Below the pieces are notes generated by a model. The model was given only the letters and a program-made list of their open reading frames with translations. It did no database searches and was not told the origin of the DNA. Source: a bacterium (GTDB lineage Bacteria; Planctomycetota; Planctomycetia; Planctomycetales; Planctomycetaceae). Taken from it: DNA of 64,000 bases. Location: positions 62,001-126,000 of the forward strand of contig WGME01000013.1 of assembly GCA_016125225.1 (NCBI GenBank), in the 5' to 3' direction. Made by a program: the position numbers and the translations under genes. Shown one piece after another: positions 337-61,653 of this stretch; position 1 is the stretch's first letter; the number at the start of each line of letters is the position of its first letter.

Positions 337-2505
<2,169 letters not shown>

Positions 2506-2943: not shown

Positions 2944-4449
2944 CTATGCGAGCAGTTCCGGGCGCACGTGGCCTTCGCCGGCGATGGGGAGCGGGCGGTT
3001 CTGGCGGTCGGGCATGGTTTGCTCGGGGTCGATGCCCAGCAGATGGTAGGTCGTTGCGTGGATATCTTTCGGCGAGATCGGCGTCTCGGCGACGGTGCCC
3101 CCGATGGCATCGCTGCGACCGACGACGGCACCCCGATGGACACCGCCCCCGGCCATGGTCATTGAATAGACCTGCGACCAGTGATGCCGGGCCGCCCCTT
3201 TGGGTTTGGAATCGATCTGCGGAGTCCGGCCATGTTCGCTGAGGCAGAGGACCAGGGTTTCATCAAGCAGGCCGCGCTGTTCCAGATCGAGAATCAAACT
3301 CGCATAACCCGCATCGAAGCCCGGCAGCAGGTATTCCTTCAGCCGTGGATAGTGGTTCTGATGCGTGTCCCAACCGCCACTGAAATAGGTGCCGTAGGAA
3401 TCCCAGAAGACCGTGACGAACCGGCTGCCAGCTTCCACAAGCCTCCTCGCAGCCAGGCAGGACTGACCGAACAGCGTGTGCCCGTACTGTTCGCGTAACG
3501 TGACCGGTTCGCGTTCGACATCTAGGGCATTCCGCACTTGTGGCGAGGTGAGCAACGATAACGCCCGTGCCTGATGACCGGCATAGGCCTGTTCGGTCGC
3601 GGCCAACTCGGCGGTTCGGCGGGCGGTATCGATCTGCGATAGCAGGTTCTGCCGCAAATTGAACCGATCAAGGCTCACCTGTTCCGGGAAGCTGCTGGCC
3701 CCATCGAAGACAAACCGGCACTGAGGATCGATGGCGGCATACGGGTCGGTGTATTCCTTGGCTTGTTCGTGTCGGGCTTTGGGAGCGATGCGGGTCGCTT
3801 TGCCTTCGAATTTGGCCCACACGGGATCGTACTGCTGGCCGAGAAACGCGGCATAAGGACCGGCGAGCAGGCCGAGGTCATCTACCTGCGAATTGAAGAC
3901 CCACGGCAACCCGATGTGCCGGGGGATGCCGCCCGTTTCAGTGTGTTGCCGTTGACGTGACCAGCAGTAATCGGCGACGGAACCCACATACGGCCAGTGT
4001 TCCGGTGCCCGGGGCGCGGCTTCCAGATTGGTGGTGTAAGCCGGCATGCCGGACAGGCTGTAGGCGACGCAATGCAGCGGGAACGGGTGAGTCACCGAGC
4101 GGATCGTGGTTAAACGATCGGCGATCGCAGCGGTCCGGGGCAGCCCTTCCCCAAAGGCGACGCCGGGAATCGATGTGGCGATCTCTCGCAACTCACCCTG
4201 AATTTCGACCGCGGCTTCGGGTTTGGGATCGAACGTTTCGTGCTGCGGTGCCGCTCCGAACAGGAACAGCATGATGCACGACTTGGCTTTGCCGAAGCCG
4301 GGCAGCCCCGATTCGGAGGTCGCCGCGGTGGCGATTTGCTGAGCCTGACCTAACGTAAGCCCATACAGACCCAGTCCGCCGACATGCAACAAGTCCCGTC
4401 GCGACAGACCATCACAAAGTTGCCGTCGCGATCCGAGCAGTCGGAGCAT
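2944..4449 (-). CDS. DUF1501 family protein with twin-arginine leader
   Basis: This 501-residue protein belongs to the DUF1501 family, which has a sulfatase/alkaline phosphatase-like fold and is greatly expanded in planctomycetes. The N-terminus carries an SRRDLLHVGG twin-arginine motif (residues 16-25) followed by a hydrophobic stretch, so it is probably exported folded by Tat. Family landmarks visible are FLFGAAPQHETFDPKP, the DLGLLAGPYAAF segment, GGWDTHQNHYPRLKEYLLPGFD and LCLSEHGRTP near the C-terminus. Family members are usually paired with a DUF1549/DUF1553 cytochrome-type protein; no such partner adjoins this copy. The true substrate of the family is not established. Confidence 0.92.
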   Translation of the reverse strand: MLRLLGSRRQLCDGLSRRDLLHVGGLGLYGLTLGQAQQIATAATSESGLPGFGKAKSCIMLFLFGAAPQHETFDPKPEAAVEIQGELREIATSIPGVAFGEGLPRTAAIADRLTTIRSVTHPFPLHCVAYSLSGMPAYTTNLEAAPRAPEHWPYVGSVADYCWSRQRQHTETGGIPRHIGLPWVFNSQVDDLGLLAGPYAAFLGQQYDPVWAKFEGKATRIAPKARHEQAKEYTDPYAAIDPQCRFVFDGASSFPEQVSLDRFNLRQNLLSQIDTARRTAELAATEQAYAGHQARALSLLTSPQVRNALDVEREPVTLREQYGHTLFGQSCLAARRLVEAGSRFVTVFWDSYGTYFSGGWDTHQNHYPRLKEYLLPGFDAGYASLILDLEQRGLLDETLVLCLSEHGRTPQIDSKPKGAARHHWSQVYSMTMAGGGVHRGAVVGRSDAIGGTVAETPISPKDIHATTYHLLGIDPEQTMPDRQNRPLPIAGEGHVRPELLA

Positions 4450-4543
4450 GTGCCAATTCCCTTGCCAAATTCAACGCATCAAAAAGTGCGATTATGATCG
4501 TGCCGAGCGGAAGTGGCAAGGGCGATGCAGCGATTAAGACACG

Positions 4544-5812
4544 CTACTCAGCGAGTTTGAGCTTTAACGTAACGGTGCCGTTATTGTCAGCGAGGTTGTT
4601 CCATTCATCCTGACAGCGGACGAATAAGGCCCCCTCTTGCGGTGCGGTCCAGCGGCCTTCTCGGCCTAGCTCGAAAGGTTCGCTGAGTTTGTAGTCGTCA
4701 AAGATCACACCCACCAGTTTGCCCTGACCTTTTTCGTCGCCATCGGCGGTCAGCTTCTCGCCTTCTTTTCCGAGCTGCCATTCTCCGTCCGCGGTGTAGG
4801 CATAGGATTGATCGGCCTTGGTCAGCAAGCGTGTGGCCTGCCAGCCGCGACCGGCATTGATCCGCGATTGCACCTGGCTCTTGCCTCGAACGCCGATGGC
4901 TTTCGTCTTCCAGTCCCAACTGCACAGGTCGACCCGATATCCCTGATCGAGATGTTCCAGGAACTGCAGATATTCAAAAGAGATCTCCGGGGCCATGGAG
5001 CCATAGACCGATTCAAAGGTTTGATTTCCTTCGGCCAGAATGCTTAATCCCAACGGGCGGAAGCGGGCGGCATAGTTCGGATTGAACGCGAGCATGTGGC
5101 ACAAGGCCCACCGCCAGGCATAGTTCTGCCAGCTGTCTCCGGTGGTCTGGCGAAGGTCCACGATTTCCGTCAGTGGTACCGGTTCCGTATTCTGCAGATA
5201 TTCCATCACGCCGGGATGAATCTGCACGCTCACATCTTTATCACGCCAATAGTTGCCGAGTTCGGCGATGCCCTCGGCGAACCAGGTGGGGCCCGAGGTT
5301 CCAAAGGTCTGCACGCAGTAAGCATGCACGGCTTCATGCTGAGGCGTGCCGCGGTCGGCCACCGCATAGACGATAGACTTGGCATTCAATAGTGTTTTCG
5401 TCCCGGCAAAACGGTCGACAGACACGGTCGTCTGACTCATGGTCAGCCCGCCGCCGGAAAGGATGCTCTGCCAGGCCTCGGGGGGAAAAAATCCTTCCGG
5501 CCAGACATCGGGCTTTTTGACGACATACATCTCGATGATCTGTGCGTTGGGCTTTCCCCAATACCGTCCGACCTGGGTGATCATCGTTTCCAGGCGTTCC
5601 AGCAGATCCTTGGTTTCGTCCGGTGTCAGGTCCGTGCGAACCACGAAGTTCCGCGAGGTGTATTCTCGGACACCCGTTGGAACGGCGGCAGCATCGCGAG
5701 CTTTGCCCCCTTTTTCTTTGGCCTTTTTCGAGGTGTCTTGTGCCCGCAATGATGCACTCAATGACCCAATGATGGTCAGAGTTAAAACCGTGAGATAAAA
5801 CCCGTATCTCAT
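4544..5812 (-). CDS. secreted HExxH metallopeptidase-like protein
   Basis: This is a 422-residue exported protein. The N-terminal signal peptide MRYGFYLTVLTLTIIGSLSA ends in an Ala-rich cleavage region before a Lys-rich linker. A gluzincin-type motif HEAVH lies at residues 159-163, with a downstream WFAEGIAEL segment whose Glu (near 180) is placed like the third zinc ligand of DUF1570/peptidase MA-like proteins. Protease activity is therefore plausible but the substrate is unknown. The remaining C-terminal part shows no domain I can name. The start ATG at 5812 gives a proper signal peptide. It is followed on the same strand by the DUF1501 gene after about 95 bases. Confidence 0.75.
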   Translation of the reverse strand: MRYGFYLTVLTLTIIGSLSASLRAQDTSKKAKEKGGKARDAAAVPTGVREYTSRNFVVRTDLTPDETKDLLERLETMITQVGRYWGKPNAQIIEMYVVKKPDVWPEGFFPPEAWQSILSGGGLTMSQTTVSVDRFAGTKTLLNAKSIVYAVADRGTPQHEAVHAYCVQTFGTSGPTWFAEGIAELGNYWRDKDVSVQIHPGVMEYLQNTEPVPLTEIVDLRQTTGDSWQNYAWRWALCHMLAFNPNYAARFRPLGLSILAEGNQTFESVYGSMAPEISFEYLQFLEHLDQGYRVDLCSWDWKTKAIGVRGKSQVQSRINAGRGWQATRLLTKADQSYAYTADGEWQLGKEGEKLTADGDEKGQGKLVGVIFDDYKLSEPFELGREGRWTAPQEGALFVRCQDEWNNLADNNGTVTLKLKLAE

Positions 5813-50337: not shown

Positions 50338-50880
50338 CTACATGCCGAGTTCTTTACGCAAGGCGGCGAGTTCATCATCGATTTGTGTCAGGCGGTCCTC
50401 CGGCAGGGTGGAAGAACCCGTGGTTGACACAGAGGCCGAAGGTTCGGCCGTACTTCCAGCCACCATGGCCGCCTGTTTCCGCAAGGCTTCCGCGTGCCTG
50501 GCTTCCAGGGCCCGCTGCATGGTCGAGAGATGTTCGCGGGTGGCGACCGCTGCCTGATGCTGCTGCCTTAAACCGGCGATCAGATCTTCGAGTTCACGTT
50601 TCCGCAGCAGGCATTGCCTGGCATCGACTTCGTTTCGGCTGAGAACGGACTGCTTGGCCTTCTCCGACCACTGCTGTGATTGCTGTTGCTGTTCGGCGAT
50701 TTCGTTCGACAACCGGCTTTCATTGTTCAAGGCCGTCGTCACGCTGCGCTTGGCACCGGCGAGTCCCTCTTCCATTTCGGAAATGATTTGTGCCACAGCG
50801 GCCTGGGGATCGTCGGCCTGCTTGAGCAGTTCCGTCAAGTTGCAGGTCACGATATCGGTCAGTCGGCTGAAATAGGTCAT
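50338..50880 (-). CDS. PspA/IM30 family protein, short
   Basis: This 180-residue protein is a PspA-like coiled coil: SRLTDIVTCNLTELLKQADD at the N-terminus, EMEEGLAGAKRSVTTAL, and RKRELEDLIAGLRQQHQ. PspA/IM30 proteins form ESCRT-III-like scaffolds that protect the inner membrane. It is shorter than typical members (about 220 residues) and its C-terminal part is a Ser/Thr-rich linker and a short final helix (QIDDELAALRKELGM). It converges on the deiodinase-like gene after 20 bases, with ECF sigma factor gene 157 bases upstream. Confidence 0.82.
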   Translation of the reverse strand: MTYFSRLTDIVTCNLTELLKQADDPQAAVAQIISEMEEGLAGAKRSVTTALNNESRLSNEIAEQQQQSQQWSEKAKQSVLSRNEVDARQCLLRKRELEDLIAGLRQQHQAAVATREHLSTMQRALEARHAEALRKQAAMVAGSTAEPSASVSTTGSSTLPEDRLTQIDDELAALRKELGM

Positions 50881-51037: not shown

Positions 51038-51682
51038 TCATTTTCGCCGCACTGTTTGGGTGTTGTCGTCTTCGTTTGACGCATCCAGTCCGGGATCGTG
51101 GAAGCCCTTTTGTTGCAGAAAGTCGCGTAGTTTTTCTCTCGCCAGTCGCAGGCGACTCTTGGTGGTTGGCAAATTCGATTCCATCGCATCAGCAATTTCT
51201 GGCAGACTCAAACCGTCATAATGATACATTTGAAACGTCATACGTTGTTCCTGCGGTAGCAGAGGCAAAACCTCAGTCACCGCTCGAACAACCTCGGCTT
51301 GAAATGCCTGATTGGCCGGAGCGGACGATTCCCCGGCGATGCGGTCCAGGCCGTCTTCCCCTTCGCTGTTGCGGGTTTTGACGGCACGCACCAGCGCATC
51401 ATGCGACCGTTTGCGTGTGTTATCGATCAGCAGGTTTCGTGCGATGCGATACATCCACCCGCGAAACGCACCGCGGGGCAGGTAATCCCACGCCGTATTA
51501 TAGACCCGCAGCAATGTCTCCTGCGATAAATCTTCCGCCAGTTGGGCATCCCGCAAATGGCGGATGAAGAAACCAATCAGAGACGATTGGTGCCGCTCGA
51601 CCAACTGACGAAACGCGTCCGGATCGCCCCCCTGCAGGGCGAGCATCAGGGCATCATCTTCGTTGGGGACGGCGTCCAGCAC
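51038..51682 (-). CDS. ECF RNA polymerase sigma factor
   Basis: This 214-residue sigma-70 family factor has region 2 (DAFRQLVERHQSSLIGF, then AEDLSQETLLRVYNTAWDYL, GWMYRIARNLLIDNTRKR) and region 4 (LLPQEQRMTFQMYHYDGLSL, then AMESNLPTTKSRLRLAREKL). The initiation codon is GTG at 51682, with no good ribosome binding site seen; an ATG 36 bases downstream is an alternative. No anti-sigma gene follows; the downstream gene is the PspA-like protein, which suggests a possible envelope-stress link. Confidence 0.93.
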   Translation of the reverse strand: MLDAVPNEDDALMLALQGGDPDAFRQLVERHQSSLIGFFIRHLRDAQLAEDLSQETLLRVYNTAWDYLPRGAFRGWMYRIARNLLIDNTRKRSHDALVRAVKTRNSEGEDGLDRIAGESSAPANQAFQAEVVRAVTEVLPLLPQEQRMTFQMYHYDGLSLPEIADAMESNLPTTKSRLRLAREKLRDFLQQKGFHDPGLDASNEDDNTQTVRRK

Positions 51683-56933: not shown

Positions 56934-58418
56934 CTATGTGGCCTTATTGCGACGGGAATTCCAGGCCGTGGTGATCAGTTGCCGCAGACCCTGCAGTCGC
57001 TGCAACCATGTGCAGCCATGCGACCAATTCAAGAGACCCTGAAGTAAGCTGAGCGGCGGATGACCGTGGGGATCGAGGTGTGGCCGCCATTTGCCGCGCT
57101 GCTCGACCACGACATTCACGCGCGTCATTTGCAGCAGCCCTTCCGGTCCGCGCGTCGGGCCATAGCCACTCTGGTTCCACGCGGTGAAGGAAACGCGGGG
57201 ATCAGCCGTCGGGGCGATCAGATCATTGACCACCACACAGCCGGCAGAGACTTGTCGCGCAAAGGCGGCCGCTTCTTTGGCCTCCCCGAAGACCGAGGCT
57301 CCTAACGCATACGGACAGGTCTGGGCGGCTTCCAAGGCGGCGGTTAGACTCGTGCAGGTCAGCAAACTGGTGACCGGGGCAAAAAGATCTTCCCGTGCAA
57401 TCGCCATGTCGGGTGTGACATCGGCCAATACCACTGGTGACCAGAGATCGTCTTCGGGCAACTCACCCAGAACGAGTTGTGCTCCCGCAGCCAGAGACTT
57501 TTCGATCACCTGGCGAGCCCTGGCCGCTGCCCCAGCTTCGACCGGTTTGGGTTGCCACTCCGCCGCTGCTCGCAGCAAGGCCTGCTGTAAGTCCCCTTGG
57601 CGAGCCGCATCGACATAGACGCGTCGCGGGGCGATGCAGGTCGCGGAACCGTTAAATGTTAACCCGAAACTGATTGCCCGTGCTGTGAGCTCAATGTCCG
57701 CCGAAGGTAACACAAAGACCGCATCGCAACCGGAAAGTTCCAGCGTCGCGGGCGTCAGTCTCTCTTCCGCCAGTTGCATTACCGCATGACCACTGGCCGT
57801 GGAACCCGTCAGCACCACATGGTCCACACCGGCGGCCATGGCATCCCGCACGCTGTCGACCGCTTCCGGCAGAATCTGAACCAGTGACGACGATCCCCCG
57901 GCTTCCACCCACAACATGCGGAGGGCATGGGCCGCTGCGGTGGAATCTCGACCGGGTTTCAGCACGACGGTGTTGCCCGCGATGAGAGCTTGCAGCATTT
58001 GCACGCCGGGCAGAAAGAGGGGGTAATTGCTCGGGCCAATGATCAGCACGACACCCCAGGGCAGGCGACGTGTTTCAACCGCGACATGCCAAGCCCACAA
58101 CGGTCGGCCACGACGGCTTTCCCACCGTGGGGATAACCAATAGGCTGCCCGCTTCGCGAGATACCCGGCGGCATCGGCTAACGGGACCAATTCGCTGGTA
58201 TAGGTTTCAATCGATTGCCGCTGCGACAGGGCAATGCTCTGGCATAATTCTTCCGATCGATGAGCCACGAGAGCGGCAAACCGTCGTGCGATGTTTTGAC
58301 GGTCTTTCAGCGGTGTTTCACGCCAGGTCCGTTGAGCGGTACGAGCCAATTCGACGGCGGCGACGATTTCTGCATCGGGACTTCTGATGACTTCTACGGT
58401 TTCGGTCGTATCCAACAT
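56934..58418 (-). CDS. aldehyde dehydrogenase family protein
   Basis: This 494-residue enzyme has the ALDH fold. NAD(P)-binding region VVLIIGPSNYPLFLPG and GNTVVLKPGRDSTAAAHAL precede the GSTASGHAVMQ loop, the Glu of TLELSGCDAVFV and the catalytic Cys in FNGSATCIAPRRVYV. Later come the ALGASVFGEAKEAAAF region and a long C-terminal segment after NQSGYGPTRGPEGLLQMTRV. The family oxidises aldehydes to acids with NAD(P)+; some members are phosphorylating. It may serve an aldehyde degradation or polyol pathway; substrate is unknown. It stands alone on its strand. Confidence 0.9.
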   Translation of the reverse strand: MLDTTETVEVIRSPDAEIVAAVELARTAQRTWRETPLKDRQNIARRFAALVAHRSEELCQSIALSQRQSIETYTSELVPLADAAGYLAKRAAYWLSPRWESRRGRPLWAWHVAVETRRLPWGVVLIIGPSNYPLFLPGVQMLQALIAGNTVVLKPGRDSTAAAHALRMLWVEAGGSSSLVQILPEAVDSVRDAMAAGVDHVVLTGSTASGHAVMQLAEERLTPATLELSGCDAVFVLPSADIELTARAISFGLTFNGSATCIAPRRVYVDAARQGDLQQALLRAAAEWQPKPVEAGAAARARQVIEKSLAAGAQLVLGELPEDDLWSPVVLADVTPDMAIAREDLFAPVTSLLTCTSLTAALEAAQTCPYALGASVFGEAKEAAAFARQVSAGCVVVNDLIAPTADPRVSFTAWNQSGYGPTRGPEGLLQMTRVNVVVEQRGKWRPHLDPHGHPPLSLLQGLLNWSHGCTWLQRLQGLRQLITTAWNSRRNKAT

Positions 58419-58670
58419 CGCAACGGCCTTTCGGCGGCATGTTTTTCATCGACAATGACCGCGCAACCCGGCGTCAAGGTTCCCTCATGGAATACAGGTG
58501 GCCCACGCCAGGCAGACACATATGCCGTATCATGCCGAATTGCCGCCAGATTCAACAGCCGGAAAGACCTCGCGGGATTTCCCGGTGCAGGACTGTTCGC
58601 CAAATCTGGAATGGCGTTATAGAGCCGTGGCACCCCGGCAACCAATCGTCAATCACCAGCGTCGATTGAT

Positions 58671-60260
58671 CTACGACTTGAAGAAGCCGCCGATCATTTC
58701 GACTAAGGGGCCTTTGTAGGCCGCCCCGCCGGTGGCCGCGACGGTGTTCAACAGATCGGCTGCGACCCAGGCACCACACATCAGGAAGATCAGCGAAAAG
58801 GTCAGCAGCATGACGGTGCTACCCGTCCATTCGCTCTCGATCGGACCCACCATCGGACGGGCGGTCGAGAAATCAGCGGCACTCATTCCCTCGGAGAAGC
58901 TGTCTTCGAACTCGTCGCCATCCCCCTCGAAGACTTCTTCCATATCTTCGTCTGCGAAGGAGTCGTCATCGGCGTCGAAGACTTCATCGATGATGTCATC
59001 AGAATCGGCGTCAAAGGCTTCCGTCGCCAGTTCTTTGCTGCTGAGGCTGCCCCCTTTGCGCCGGGTTTGCGTCGGAAGTTCGTCTTCGGAGTCGTCATCA
59101 TCATCAAACATGATGACATTGGTTTCGGCCTGCGTCTGATCGGCCTGGAAGGGCGACTTGGGCATCAAGTCGTCATCATCTTCCATCAGCAGCGGAACTT
59201 CCGGATCGGTCCGATCCAGATCGTTATCGTCCTCGAGCAGCATGGGGGCTGTCATGTCGAGGTCGTCATCGCTGAGTGACGCTGCGGGCTGCTGACGCAG
59301 TTTCGAAGTGGACCGCGGCGGCTCGTCTCCGACTTTGATGCCACTGTCTTCCGCGAGCTTGAACGCGGTATCTTCATCGTCGGCGAGACGGAAGCCGCTG
59401 TCGCCGGGACGTTCCAGAAGAATGCCACTGTCGGCAGGACGACGGAGTTGAATGCCGCTTTCGTTGGACAATCGCAGGCTGCTATCGCCGGTAAGTCGAA
59501 TGCCGCTGTCGGCTTGCAAAGCGATGCCCGAATCATCGTCGAGCAGAACCGAGTCACTCAGGTCGAGATCGAGGGCATCCATGTCGGGCAACGCCGACAT
59601 GCCGCTTCCCTTCTGAATGCCGCTGGGATCGACAAGTTTCACATCGCTATCGCTGCCGGGCATGGGAGCCAGGCGAACGTCGCTATCGGAATCGGTCAAC
59701 CGGGACCCCGGGGCTGCCAAACGCACATCGCTGTCGGAATCGTGCAGCGGCAGCTTATTGGGAGCGGCAAGCCGGACATCGCTATCGGAATCGGACAGTG
59801 TGATTTTCTCATCGCCCGCTTTAGGCTTGATGAGCTTCACATCGCTGTCGCTATCGGTGCCTTTGGCCACATCACCGCCCGAGGTGACCAGGCGGACATC
59901 ACTATCGCTGCCCTTTTTAGCGGGGAAGACCGGAATGTCGCCACTGCTGCCCGTGAGTTGGGCTTTCAAGTCGTCCCGGCCGATTAAACGGACATCGCTA
60001 TCGGACATCGAGGGCGAGAATTTGACATCGCTGTCGCTGTCTTCGAGTGCCGAATCATCGTCGATCAACGGCACTTCCGGATTGGAATCGGGCTGGCGAC
60101 GACGCTTGGCTTCTTCGACGTCATCAGATTTGAATTTCCAGGTTCCGCGATCGGCGAAGCCTCGCAATTCCCCCCGCTCACGCAACCGCATCACTTCGTC
60201 GTTGCGGACGCCCAGGAGTTGTGCGGCTTCTTCCAGGCTCAGATATTTTTTTGCAGCCAT
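58671..60260 (-). CDS. HTH-TM protein with two sets of eight acidic repeats
   Basis: This 529-residue protein has an N-terminal helix-turn-helix of excisionase/MerR type (residues 5-55; LSLEEAAQLLGVRNDEVMRL) and a C-terminal membrane segment (about 482-505; VMLLTFSLIFLMCGAWVAAD). Between them are two repeat sets: eight copies ending DSDV[RK][LF] in residues 75-210 and eight [DE]-S-G/S-[ILF]-x-[LV] copies in residues 243-310. A highly acidic stretch follows (about 340-460). The order suggests a membrane-tethered DNA-binding or scaffold protein with phospho-acceptor-like repeats. No function is established, and the DSD repeats are strikingly regular. No known partner adjoins it. Confidence 0.8.
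   Translation of the reverse strand: MAAKKYLSLEEAAQLLGVRNDEVMRLRERGELRGFADRGTWKFKSDDVEEAKRRRQPDSNPEVPLIDDDSALEDSDSDVKFSPSMSDSDVRLIGRDDLKAQLTGSSGDIPVFPAKKGSDSDVRLVTSGGDVAKGTDSDSDVKLIKPKAGDEKITLSDSDSDVRLAAPNKLPLHDSDSDVRLAAPGSRLTDSDSDVRLAPMPGSDSDVKLVDPSGIQKGSGMSALPDMDALDLDLSDSVLLDDDSGIALQADSGIRLTGDSSLRLSNESGIQLRRPADSGILLERPGDSGFRLADDEDTAFKLAEDSGIKVGDEPPRSTSKLRQQPAASLSDDDLDMTAPMLLEDDNDLDRTDPEVPLLMEDDDDLMPKSPFQADQTQAETNVIMFDDDDDSEDELPTQTRRKGGSLSSKELATEAFDADSDDIIDEVFDADDDSFADEDMEEVFEGDGDEFEDSFSEGMSAADFSTARPMVGPIESEWTGSTVMLLTFSLIFLMCGAWVAADLLNTVAATGGAAYKGPLVEMIGGFFKS
59331..59534 (-). repeat. eight D/E-S-G/S-x-x-L repeats in the HTH-TM protein
   Basis: This segment codes for residues 243-310. Copies are DSGIAL, DSGIRL, DSSLRL, ESGIQL, DSGILL, DSGFRL, DTAFKL and DSGIKV, spaced about 8-10 residues apart. 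The pattern is acidic-Ser/Thr-small-hydrophobic-x-Leu/Val. Confidence 0.9.
59631..60038 (-). repeat. eight SDSDV[RK]L repeats in the HTH-TM protein
   Basis: This segment codes for residues 75-210. Each copy contains (D)SDSDV[RK] followed by Leu, Phe or Val, separated by 5-25 variable residues. The DNA for the repeats is itself recurrent (CATCGCTATCGGAATC-like on the plus strand). Confidence 0.9.
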
Positions 60261-60585
60261 GCTCGCCAGCTTCTCGCTTCACCCGTTGTGATGGCAACGG
60301 ATTCATGAACATTGTGAAACCACGCTGGCCAGTTCGACCAACGGGGTATTGAGGGGAAATCGGCACCGCGACCGGTTCTGCCTGTGAAGAACTTCCACGT
60401 GACGCAGGATCGTCAGCTTCGCGTCCGTCGTTGCAACAGGTAGTCCGGCAGGGGACCGTCTTGATCCCGAAAACAATGTACCTTACCACAAGAAATTGTA
60501 GGGGTTACGAAAGACTGATCGCAAGAGGCAAACCTGCGGAGACCGAGGGTTTTCCGCGAGTCCTGACCACCCAATTTCGCTGAAA
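60261..60585. other. intergenic region, nothing recognised
   Basis: These 325 bases separate the HTH-TM gene from the DUF1080 gene on the same strand. I see no open frame with a signal or domain, no strong terminator and no clear promoter. A short dyad CGCTGAAATCAGCG straddles the end of the DUF1080 gene at 60578-60591. Confidence 0.4.
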
Positions 60586-61653
60586 TCAGCGGCATTTCCG
60601 CAGCACGGAACGACGGACGGAGCAGCAGGACGTGGTGGCCGTGGCACACGTTGTTCCGGCGGTCGGGGTTGTATCGACAATCCAGATATTGCGGAATTCG
60701 ACGGGATTGCCGTGATTCTGTAACAGGATCGGCAAGGGTTCCGGCCCTTCCGGTCGACCACCGCCGGTTTTGTTTTCCAGTTCCACCTGGTTCTGCACCA
60801 CCACGCCGTTATGCCAGACCGTGATGCGGGCCTTTGCTGTCCGTTCCCCCTGGTCATTAAATCGCGCGGCGGTGAAGTGAATGTCGTAGGTCTGCCACAC
60901 CAAGGGGGGGAAGCTCATGTTCATGTCGGGGGCTTTGAACTTGTAGAGCGAAGCGACTTCGTTGACGGCCGGTTCCATGCCGAAGGAATCGAGCACCTGC
61001 ACTTCATAGCGGCGTTGCACATAGAAGCCACTGTTGCCCCGCGCCTGACCCCGGGCGTAGGGCATGTAAGGCGTTTTGAATTCGCCATGCAACTGAAAAT
61101 CCTGAACCGGGTGAATGGTCTCTGCACCAATCTGCAGAAAACCTTCCGGAGAGATTTTGACATCTTTCAGCAGGCCAGTGTCGGTGCCATCGAACAAGAC
61201 CTGTGCATTTGCCGGTGGCCGTGCTCCTTCCGTGAGACTGTAACGACGGATGGGTTGCAGATAACCCAGCACAGCGCCGTTAGAAGAAGAGACCGTCGCA
61301 GCCAACCCCGTTTGCAGACGCACCCGCCAACCATCGGCGGTGAGGTGTACGCCTTGATCATCACGTTGACCGGTGAGTGTGGTCTTGCTGGCTCCATAGT
61401 ATCCATTGCCGGGGAGTCCACCCGGATAGAGCAAGGCTTGGAACTCTCCGTTGCCTCCGGCGACGACTTGCAGGCCCACGGTCTGACAGCCGTAGCAGCC
61501 ATTGATTCGTCCGGTATATTCCCCTTGAAGGGCGTAGTCGGCATCCACGTCTTCGAGACGTGTGACGGCAGCTTTCTGCGGATCGGTGGTCTCTGCAGCC
61601 AGCAGGCCCGCGGTCAACGCGAATCCCCAAGTCAAAACGGCGGTCGTCAGCAT
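60586..61653 (-). CDS. DUF1080 (3-keto-disaccharide hydrolase-like) exported protein
   Basis: This 355-residue protein has a signal peptide (MLTTAVLTWGFALTAGLLAA). The C-terminal 200 residues form the concanavalin-like DUF1080 domain: VLFDGTDTGLLKDVKI, LHGEFKTPYMPYARGQARGN (then GFYVQRRYEVQVLDS), and GPEPLPILLQNHGNPVEFRNIWI. Members of this family include 3-keto-disaccharide hydrolases and are expanded in planctomycetes, so a sugar substrate is a reasonable inference. The preceding 150 residues (DGTDT upstream) are a less defined beta-rich region. The very C-terminus holds several Cys (TTCATATTSCCSV). Confidence 0.88.
   Translation of the reverse strand: MLTTAVLTWGFALTAGLLAAETTDPQKAAVTRLEDVDADYALQGEYTGRINGCYGCQTVGLQVVAGGNGEFQALLYPGGLPGNGYYGASKTTLTGQRDDQGVHLTADGWRVRLQTGLAATVSSSNGAVLGYLQPIRRYSLTEGARPPANAQVLFDGTDTGLLKDVKISPEGFLQIGAETIHPVQDFQLHGEFKTPYMPYARGQARGNSGFYVQRRYEVQVLDSFGMEPAVNEVASLYKFKAPDMNMSFPPLVWQTYDIHFTAARFNDQGERTAKARITVWHNGVVVQNQVELENKTGGGRPEGPEPLPILLQNHGNPVEFRNIWIVDTTPTAGTTCATATTSCCSVRRSVLRKCR

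Follow-up and report, generated by a model that had tools for sequence, protein, structure and literature searches.

The gene and its product

We analysed a gene in a 64,000-nucleotide stretch of planctomycete DNA (assembly GCA_016125225.1, contig WGME01000013.1, positions 62,001 to 126,000; hereafter the window). It encodes a protein of 529 amino acids in which an N-terminal winged helix-turn-helix (wHTH) domain is joined to a membrane helix by a long acidic linker carrying two blocks of short motifs. The ends and strand of the open reading frame (ORF) are exact, with the start ATG at 60260 and the stop codon ending at 58671. The parts of the gene, in window coordinates, are:

58671..60260 (-): whole gene, 529 amino acids; wHTH, acidic motif-rich linker, membrane helix and short C-terminal tail
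60099..60245 (-): MerR/excisionase-type wHTH, amino acids 6-54 (HTH_17, TIGR01764, AlphaFold, Foldseek)
59634..60038 (-): first block, eight SDSDV[RK][LF] motifs, amino acids 75-209, start-to-start spacing 11-32
59331..59534 (-): second block, DSGxxL-type motifs (4 strict, 7-8 loose), amino acids 243-310
58851..59300 (-): strongly acidic segment, predicted disordered, amino acids 321-470, with 51 D/E against 8 K/R
58734..58823 (-): membrane helix, amino acids 480-509 (AlphaFold, Kyte-Doolittle)
58674..58733 (-): C-terminal tail, amino acids 510-529, probably periplasmic, with an AlphaFold helix at 518-527

The wHTH was recognised by HTH_17 of Pfam over amino acids 6-55 (E=1e-8; 35.8 bits against a curated cut-off of 27), by TIGR01764 'excise' of NCBIfam (7.4e-8; 32.6 bits against 28.8) and by the excisionase family PHROG 66 (1.8e-6). 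Judged by this domain, the protein belongs to the excisionase-type HTH family. HTH_17 was the only significant domain in the Pfam scan of the protein, which returned no significant OmpR-type wHTH (Trans_reg_C), and DUF536 was absent from its Pfam matches up to E=10. In the full-length AlphaFold model the predicted local distance difference test score (pLDDT) was 92-95 in the wHTH blocks from 11 to 50 (89-95 with the domain-only model included); in the membrane helix it was 91-92 in the blocks from 481 to 500 and 75 in 501-510. The 19-residue Kyte-Doolittle maximum was 2.24, at amino acid 483. An earlier reading made from the DNA letters alone (the sequence-only reading) had described an excisionase-type DNA-binding domain joined to a membrane helix, and the two family models, the AlphaFold helix and the hydropathy profile bear out the excisionase-type HTH and the membrane helix.

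Since pLDDT was below 50 for 365 of the 529 residues, nearly all of them within 72-474, the middle of the protein is predicted to be disordered; over most of the acidic segment the score was ~37-53 per block. With an N-terminal HTH and a single membrane helix, the N-terminus would lie inside and the C-terminus outside. The ~20 amino acids that follow the helix leave no room for a folded periplasmic domain of the ToxR kind. Within 58000-61000, Rfam gave no match at gathering score.

Two blocks of short motifs

The first block holds eight copies of SDSDV[RK][LF]. The sequence-only reading had listed eight copies of SDSDV[RK]L; its number stands, with only seven of the copies ending in L. Composition shuffles of amino acids 67-320 (20,000) gave a mean of 0.00005 copies and a maximum of 1. 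The second motif had likewise been put at eight copies, of DSG-x-x-L, and this count did not hold: there are four strict DSGxxL motifs (mean 0.07 and maximum 3 in the same shuffles), five of DSGxx[LV] and seven of [DE]S[GS]xx[LV], and eight are reached only by relaxing each position so that DSSLRL, ESGIQL, DTAFKL and DSGIKV are included. Both motifs are versions of a single frame, [DE][ST][GSDVA][ILVF]x[LVF], which has 16 matches in the protein.

The copies differ in synonymous codons and therefore look old. A tandem duplication at the DNA level was rejected, Tandem Repeats Finder detecting no tandem repeat at the gene. Other users of DSDV[RK]L in the genome were also sought and rejected: the DNA pattern had 13 matches, eight in the gene and five elsewhere, against seven for a reversed control. 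When the genome was searched at the protein level with E up to 10, two matches came back: a paralogue on contig C12, full-length, and a weak one to the HTH.

Homologues were compared using 101 ORFs chosen by our own filter (a wing pattern plus a hydrophobic C-terminus), which drops proteins with other wing patterns. Later counts use 100 ORFs, as two had a common locus identifier, and close relatives were thinned only in a set of 64 representatives. One of the 101 (392 amino acids, L067) is motif-free and may be no orthologue. Copy numbers ranged from 0 to 12 for SDSD[VI] and from 0 to 15 for the DSG motif. Equal copy number in two different repeats had seemed striking; counted by regular expressions, it occurs in 21 ORFs, against 13 expected by independence, the window protein itself scoring 8 versus 6, and we therefore regard the equality as a coincidence of counting. 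The order of the blocks is another matter, the first preceding the second in 93/93 ORFs with at least two of each motif.

Among 11 orthologues of the genus-level group g9, none of the 35 SDSDVxL positions varied in amino acid and 28 of the 35 varied silently. Variable or gapped positions made up 11/48 in the DSG motifs and 51/111 in the inter-motif linkers. On this codon-level evidence the SDSDV motifs are strongly selected. The best conserved linker stretch class-wide lies in the second block and is a DSGIxLxxPxDSGISLE-like pair, here ESGIQLRRPADSGILLE (amino acids 267-283); in alignment A3 (29 sequences) five of its positions (G269, L272, D277, G279, L282) never vary, and two more, S268 and S278, are conserved at 90% or more. 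Because the short motifs are clearly selected within a region predicted to be disordered, we would expect a class-wide binding partner.

Outside the class Planctomycetia, SDSD[VI] was found in 0/43 loci and at least two DSG motifs in 0/43, and the linker has a median length of 125 amino acids (n=43) versus 406.5 inside the class (n=100). The repeats of the sequence-only reading are thus a property of orthologues within the class and not of those sampled beyond it; the arrays seem to have been added in the Planctomycetia.

The paralogue encoded in the window's own genome (C12:53503-55056; L002:1480-3057, minus strand) has the same plan. Its relatives in nine other genomes (L223-L231) keep the DSG motifs and the membrane segment, and SDSD motifs are also kept in eight. 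Since the wing departs from the strict pattern in most of the ten paralogues while the arrays and the membrane segment stay, the arrays may serve a function common to the paralogous family.

Distribution across the Planctomycetota

A homologue was found in 160/170 genomes of the family sample. A profile of 21 orthologues matched 146/150 genomes of an order sample and 269/297 of a class sample, and a class-wide profile matched 335/393 genomes of the phylum. The nine matches listed from outside the class covered the N-terminal part only; their reading frames show the same plan of HTH, acidic linker and membrane helix, and an HTH-only profile built from the nine matched 339/393 phylum genomes. 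A contig scan gave 80 named loci with planctomycete labels (Planctomycetaceae, Schlesneria, Gimesia, Planctomicrobium, Thalassoglobus, Planctomyces, Planctomycetota and others), two of which are Kuenenia labels on metagenome bins.

The architecture outside the class was examined in one locus from each of 34 families, picked by the HTH match alone, together with the nine earlier loci, which come from seven families with two families present twice. Family f36 was omitted (its match is at a contig end), the sample covers families with a listed match, and some loci lie near contig ends. A membrane helix followed the HTH in 43/43 of these loci, and in 34/34 of the 34-family sample. By this distribution the HTH-linker-membrane plan is older than the SDSDV motifs.

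In the titles and abstract openings of open-licence papers, nothing describing the motifs or the gene cluster was found. Helix-turn-helix and excisionase go unmentioned in the main text of the Planctopirus limnophila essential-gene paper (PMC10632474).

Neighbouring genes

Beside the window gene lie genes for an aldehyde dehydrogenase, a 3-keto-disaccharide hydrolase and a polyphosphate kinase, which are not conserved there. When only these window genes were used to look for a conserved neighbourhood, nearly nothing was found; the pattern emerged from other orders, and it consists of two genes.

The first encodes a small exported protein of ~110 amino acids with the core VYHVDxxTGxIxLKSVRNxxWDL (L220:7334-7756 and relatives, alignment A5) and no Pfam match. 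It lies upstream in 20/26 class loci outside family f1 and in 0/85 f1 loci (some of them duplicates), and it is present in 87/198 class genomes, none of the 87 in f1. Where the coordinates of both genes are listed for class genomes outside f1 (51 genomes), 49 have it on the strand of the HTH match, its end lying 11-269 bp (median 99) upstream of that match; in two the genes are unlinked.

The second encodes an OmpA-type protein. A profile match lies directly downstream in 11/26 non-f1 class loci. In f1, where 69 of the 85 loci extend 3.2 kb or more in that direction, 11 distinct loci have the match directly downstream, and in three others it is ~7.4 kb upstream. The OmpA domain PF00691 was found in all three class proteins scanned (6e-18 to 4.5e-20), and in the class loci L217 and L247 the matches are confined to the region that precedes the OmpA domain. 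A lipobox-like cysteine stands at the start of many class OmpA-type proteins and, by a loose pattern, of 22/33 outside the class, so that many of the products look like lipoproteins.

Outside the class, where 'OmpA-type' means a match to our own profile with no Pfam test, the small gene lies directly upstream in 28/43 loci, the OmpA-type gene directly downstream in 29/43 and both in 24/43 (for the 34 families taken by themselves, 23 and 22 loci for the small and OmpA-type genes). A control on the placement of these matches put every one of the 28 small-gene and 33 OmpA-type matches within 900 bp of the gene and on its strand, with none elsewhere in the 43 loci. Because the plan is found in 43/43 of these loci and the neighbour matches lie only beside the gene, we consider the module to be phylum-wide.

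Genes for an ECF (extracytoplasmic function) sigma factor and PspA/IM30 lie directly upstream of the HTH gene in six f1 loci (L072, L078, L086, L094, L108, L215). Their homologues in the window, a PspA/IM30 gene and an ECF sigma gene standing side by side (50341-50880 and 51041-51682, both minus strand), are ~7-8 kb from the HTH gene, which may reflect an earlier gene order. Two further observations concern downstream genes. In L258 the tethered HTH gene is immediately followed by a tandem pair of OmpA-type ORFs (3655-5083). In 14/26 non-f1 class loci (L218-L221, L232, L237-L240, L245, L247-L250), CcsA-like genes for cytochrome c assembly are found on the strand of the HTH gene, 4.7-7.2 kb downstream of its start; four of these loci also have ResB-like genes.

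A possible DNA tether at the envelope

The domain-only AlphaFold model of the wHTH had a mean pLDDT of 83. Its closest folds by Foldseek were Xis of mycobacteriophage Pukovnik, DNA-bound BldC of Streptomyces, DNA-bound RacA of Bacillus, TraN and SoxR, with CbpM (3ucs) and Rv2175c ranked lower; the top matches had probabilities of 1.00 and a best E of 7.2e-3. Together, the model and the likeness to Xis, BldC and RacA identify a predicted MerR/Xis wHTH fold. Wing positions K42 and K44 are each basic in 28/29 sequences.

Tentatively, and short of an even chance, we propose that the protein forms the cytoplasmic arm of an envelope module shared across the Planctomycetota, its likeliest role being to hold DNA at the envelope in the manner of RocS or RacA. 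A DNA tether is favoured because of the wHTH fold, the membrane anchor, the long leash and the precedent of RocS. The protein would sit in the inner membrane with its N-terminus inside and its C-terminus outside; the wHTH would bind DNA, the linker would be a long flexible leash, and chromosomal DNA, or a DNA-bound complex, would be held at the envelope. Since the genes are linked in relatives, the protein presumably works with exported and cell-wall-binding proteins, and the products of the neighbouring genes would couple it to the periplasm and the cell wall. In the Planctomycetia the linker is about three times longer than elsewhere and carries two ordered, Ser-centred blocks, SDSDV[RK]L and then DSGIxL, which could be multivalent docking sites for partner proteins, possibly controlled by phosphorylation.

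The nearest functional parallel is RocS of Streptococcus pneumoniae which, in the sections available from its description (PMC11500499), shows that a MerR-type wHTH with a C-terminal membrane helix can serve chromosome segregation, and is linked to a Ser/Thr kinase. An N-terminal MerR-type wHTH and a C-terminal membrane anchor are both found here, and, as in RocS, one end of the protein would face DNA and the other the membrane. The RocS anchor, however, is an amphipathic helix and not a transmembrane helix; RocS has a coiled coil with DUF536, whereas here the linker is acidic, motif-rich and predicted disordered; and many relatives here have genes for envelope proteins as neighbours. The comparison draws on the published description of RocS. 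As there is no DUF536 match and the linker is predicted to be disordered, we do not file the protein as RocS; by analogy it would work most like RocS while failing RocS membership.

RacA of Bacillus subtilis, a chromosome anchor, shares the wHTH fold (5i44_A against amino acids 1-62, TM-score 0.67, 22% identity). To our knowledge RacA has no membrane helix. It differs further in having a coiled coil, a disordered C-terminus and polar placement via DivIVA, according to the accessible part of PMC11500499. BldC and phage Xis are the closest folds (6ama, 6amk, 4j2n) and fall in the same Pfam/NCBIfam family, but these DNA-binding proteins are short and soluble and lack both the linker and the membrane helix. 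With DNA-bound RacA among the structural neighbours and RocS for a published analogue, the nucleoid or scaffold link suggested by the sequence-only reading is still the best class of explanation.

Several observations weigh against a DNA tether within a conserved module. In the window's own genome the OmpA-type orthologue, which is 53% identical to the Schlesneria protein, shares the gene's contig but lies 29 kb away, and the small exported-protein gene had no match there or in any f1 genome among the 198 class genomes scanned; with one partner distant and the other missing, the module is broken up in this genome. Outside the class, neither neighbour was found in 8 of the 34 families sampled. 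As for the wHTH itself, there were zero Foldseek matches at E <=0.001. The face from alpha2 to the wing is mildly basic in 29 sequences (mean +1.8, range -1 to +4), with a basic residue at the R25 position in 9/29 and at R38 in 13/29. Seven of the ten paralogues lose the strict wing pattern, one of them only by W to F. Moreover, CbpM and DafA demonstrate that a wHTH fold can bind protein instead.

The protein might instead be a membrane-tethered one-component regulator of the ToxR/ToxS or VtrA/VtrC kind, which we consider possible though rather unlikely. The small exported protein, perhaps with the OmpA-type protein, would sense the envelope and switch the predicted DNA binding at envelope genes, those of its own operon included. 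ToxR/ToxS and VtrA/VtrC have an OmpR-type wHTH and larger periplasmic domains. Here the wHTH is of MerR/Xis type and the tail, at ~20-30 amino acids, is short for a sensor domain; because of the wHTH type and the missing periplasmic domain, we do not call the protein a ToxR. From what we know of ToxR-like proteins, a ~400-residue acidic linker with conserved motif arrays would be unexpected, and in f1 the small gene is missing though the tethered protein stays. A tethered wHTH beside a gene for a small exported partner is nevertheless what many relatives have (the partner being absent from the window and from f1), and a wHTH protein with one membrane helix and a small exported protein encoded next to it fits the plan of co-component systems given in the available portion of PMC9214523. 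The close upstream position of the small gene in 49/51 class genomes outside f1, and the ECF sigma and PspA/IM30 genes directly upstream in six f1 loci, also speak for a regulator.

Somewhat less likely again is a scaffold at the membrane, in which the wHTH would have a protein and not DNA as its partner and the arrays would recruit further partners. When an HTH profile was compared with PDB sequences, designed proteins excluded, the best natural matches were DafA (E 0.033), a sigma factor (0.15) and BldC (0.28), all of them weak. DafA is a soluble partner of a J-domain chaperone and, like CbpM, has a MerR-like fold. CbpM, a Foldseek match (3ucs), binds the J-domain of CbpA, and differs from our protein in being a soluble J-domain chaperone partner, as set out in the accessible sections of PMC4063869. 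The modest charge of the DNA face, and the paralogues that keep the motifs when the strict wing pattern is lost, also speak for such a scaffold. It fits less well with the basic K42 and K44 positions, and the nearest Foldseek neighbours (Xis, BldC, RacA, TraN, SoxR) are mostly DNA binders.

A fuller version of the tether has a small chance of being right in all its parts. In it the wHTH would grip the nucleoid, and the small exported and OmpA/Pal-type partners would fix the protein to peptidoglycan or the outer membrane, giving a trans-envelope tether that would link DNA directly to the cell wall, while the Planctomycetia motif arrays would be a multivalent hub, perhaps aiding nucleoid placement or division. 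Planctomycetes divide without FtsZ and have highly condensed DNA. If the tether reading is true, the protein would offer a handle on the connection between chromosome and envelope in these organisms. Whatever its role, this envelope-type protein occurs in most of the phylum genomes sampled, often in an operon-like setting, and its function is undescribed in the open-licence literature.

Motif serines and kinases

The sequence-only reading noted that the motif Ser residues in acidic settings resemble phosphorylation sites, and pointed to a receptor kinase encoded in the window:

337..2502 (+): receptor-type kinase with a dCache sensor domain and a Pkinase domain (7.4e-46)

In the 100 ORFs the central residue of the first motif is Ser in 602/616 cases and Thr in 0. 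That of the second is Ser in 587/629, Thr in 1, Glu in 19 and Asp in 8; Glu and Asp thus account for 27 of the 42 non-Ser cases. The linkers of the 64 representatives contain 4022 Ser and 992 Thr, so about one-fifth of their Ser plus Thr is Thr. Hanks kinases and FHA domains favour Thr. Acceptance of Thr at the modified position, expected for a Hanks-kinase substrate with FHA readout, was not seen in these motifs, and because Thr is nearly excluded from them, interchangeable Ser/Thr phosphosites are a poor fit. A better fit would be a modification confined to Ser, or a Ser that plays a structural part in a bound turn or strand.

The kinase at 337-2502 lies ~56 kb from the HTH gene; the genome has 51 Pkinase matches in 6.35 Mb, this kinase among them, and 21 FHA matches. 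A kinase-domain search of the 111 family loci (1.71 Mb) found a kinase in seven, at 3.0-9.5 kb and on mixed strands; this does not exceed the genome kinase density, which comes from a more sensitive search. As a dedicated partner the window kinase was therefore rejected, given its distance, its being one of 51, the lack of an excess near family loci and the exclusion of Thr.

A scaffold in which a Hanks kinase, perhaps that at 337-2502, phosphorylates the motif Ser and FHA or similar domains recognise the modified residue is accordingly very improbable, with Thr at 0/616 and 1/629 positions and kinases in only 7/111 loci, and no planctomycete phosphoproteome paper was found by title in the open-licence literature. 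What speaks for it is the acidic setting of the Ser residues, the prevalence of Glu and Asp among second-block replacements, the number of Pkinase and FHA matches in the genome, and the precedent of RocS and Rv2175c, wHTH proteins phosphorylated by Hanks-type kinases (for RocS, the available part of PMC11500499). The proposed kinase link is thus weak at best, its sole hint from gene position being a single locus of the 111: in L074 the HTH gene has, ~3 kb upstream and on the opposite strand, a kinase that is 60% identical over 270 amino acids to the 337-2502 kinase domain.

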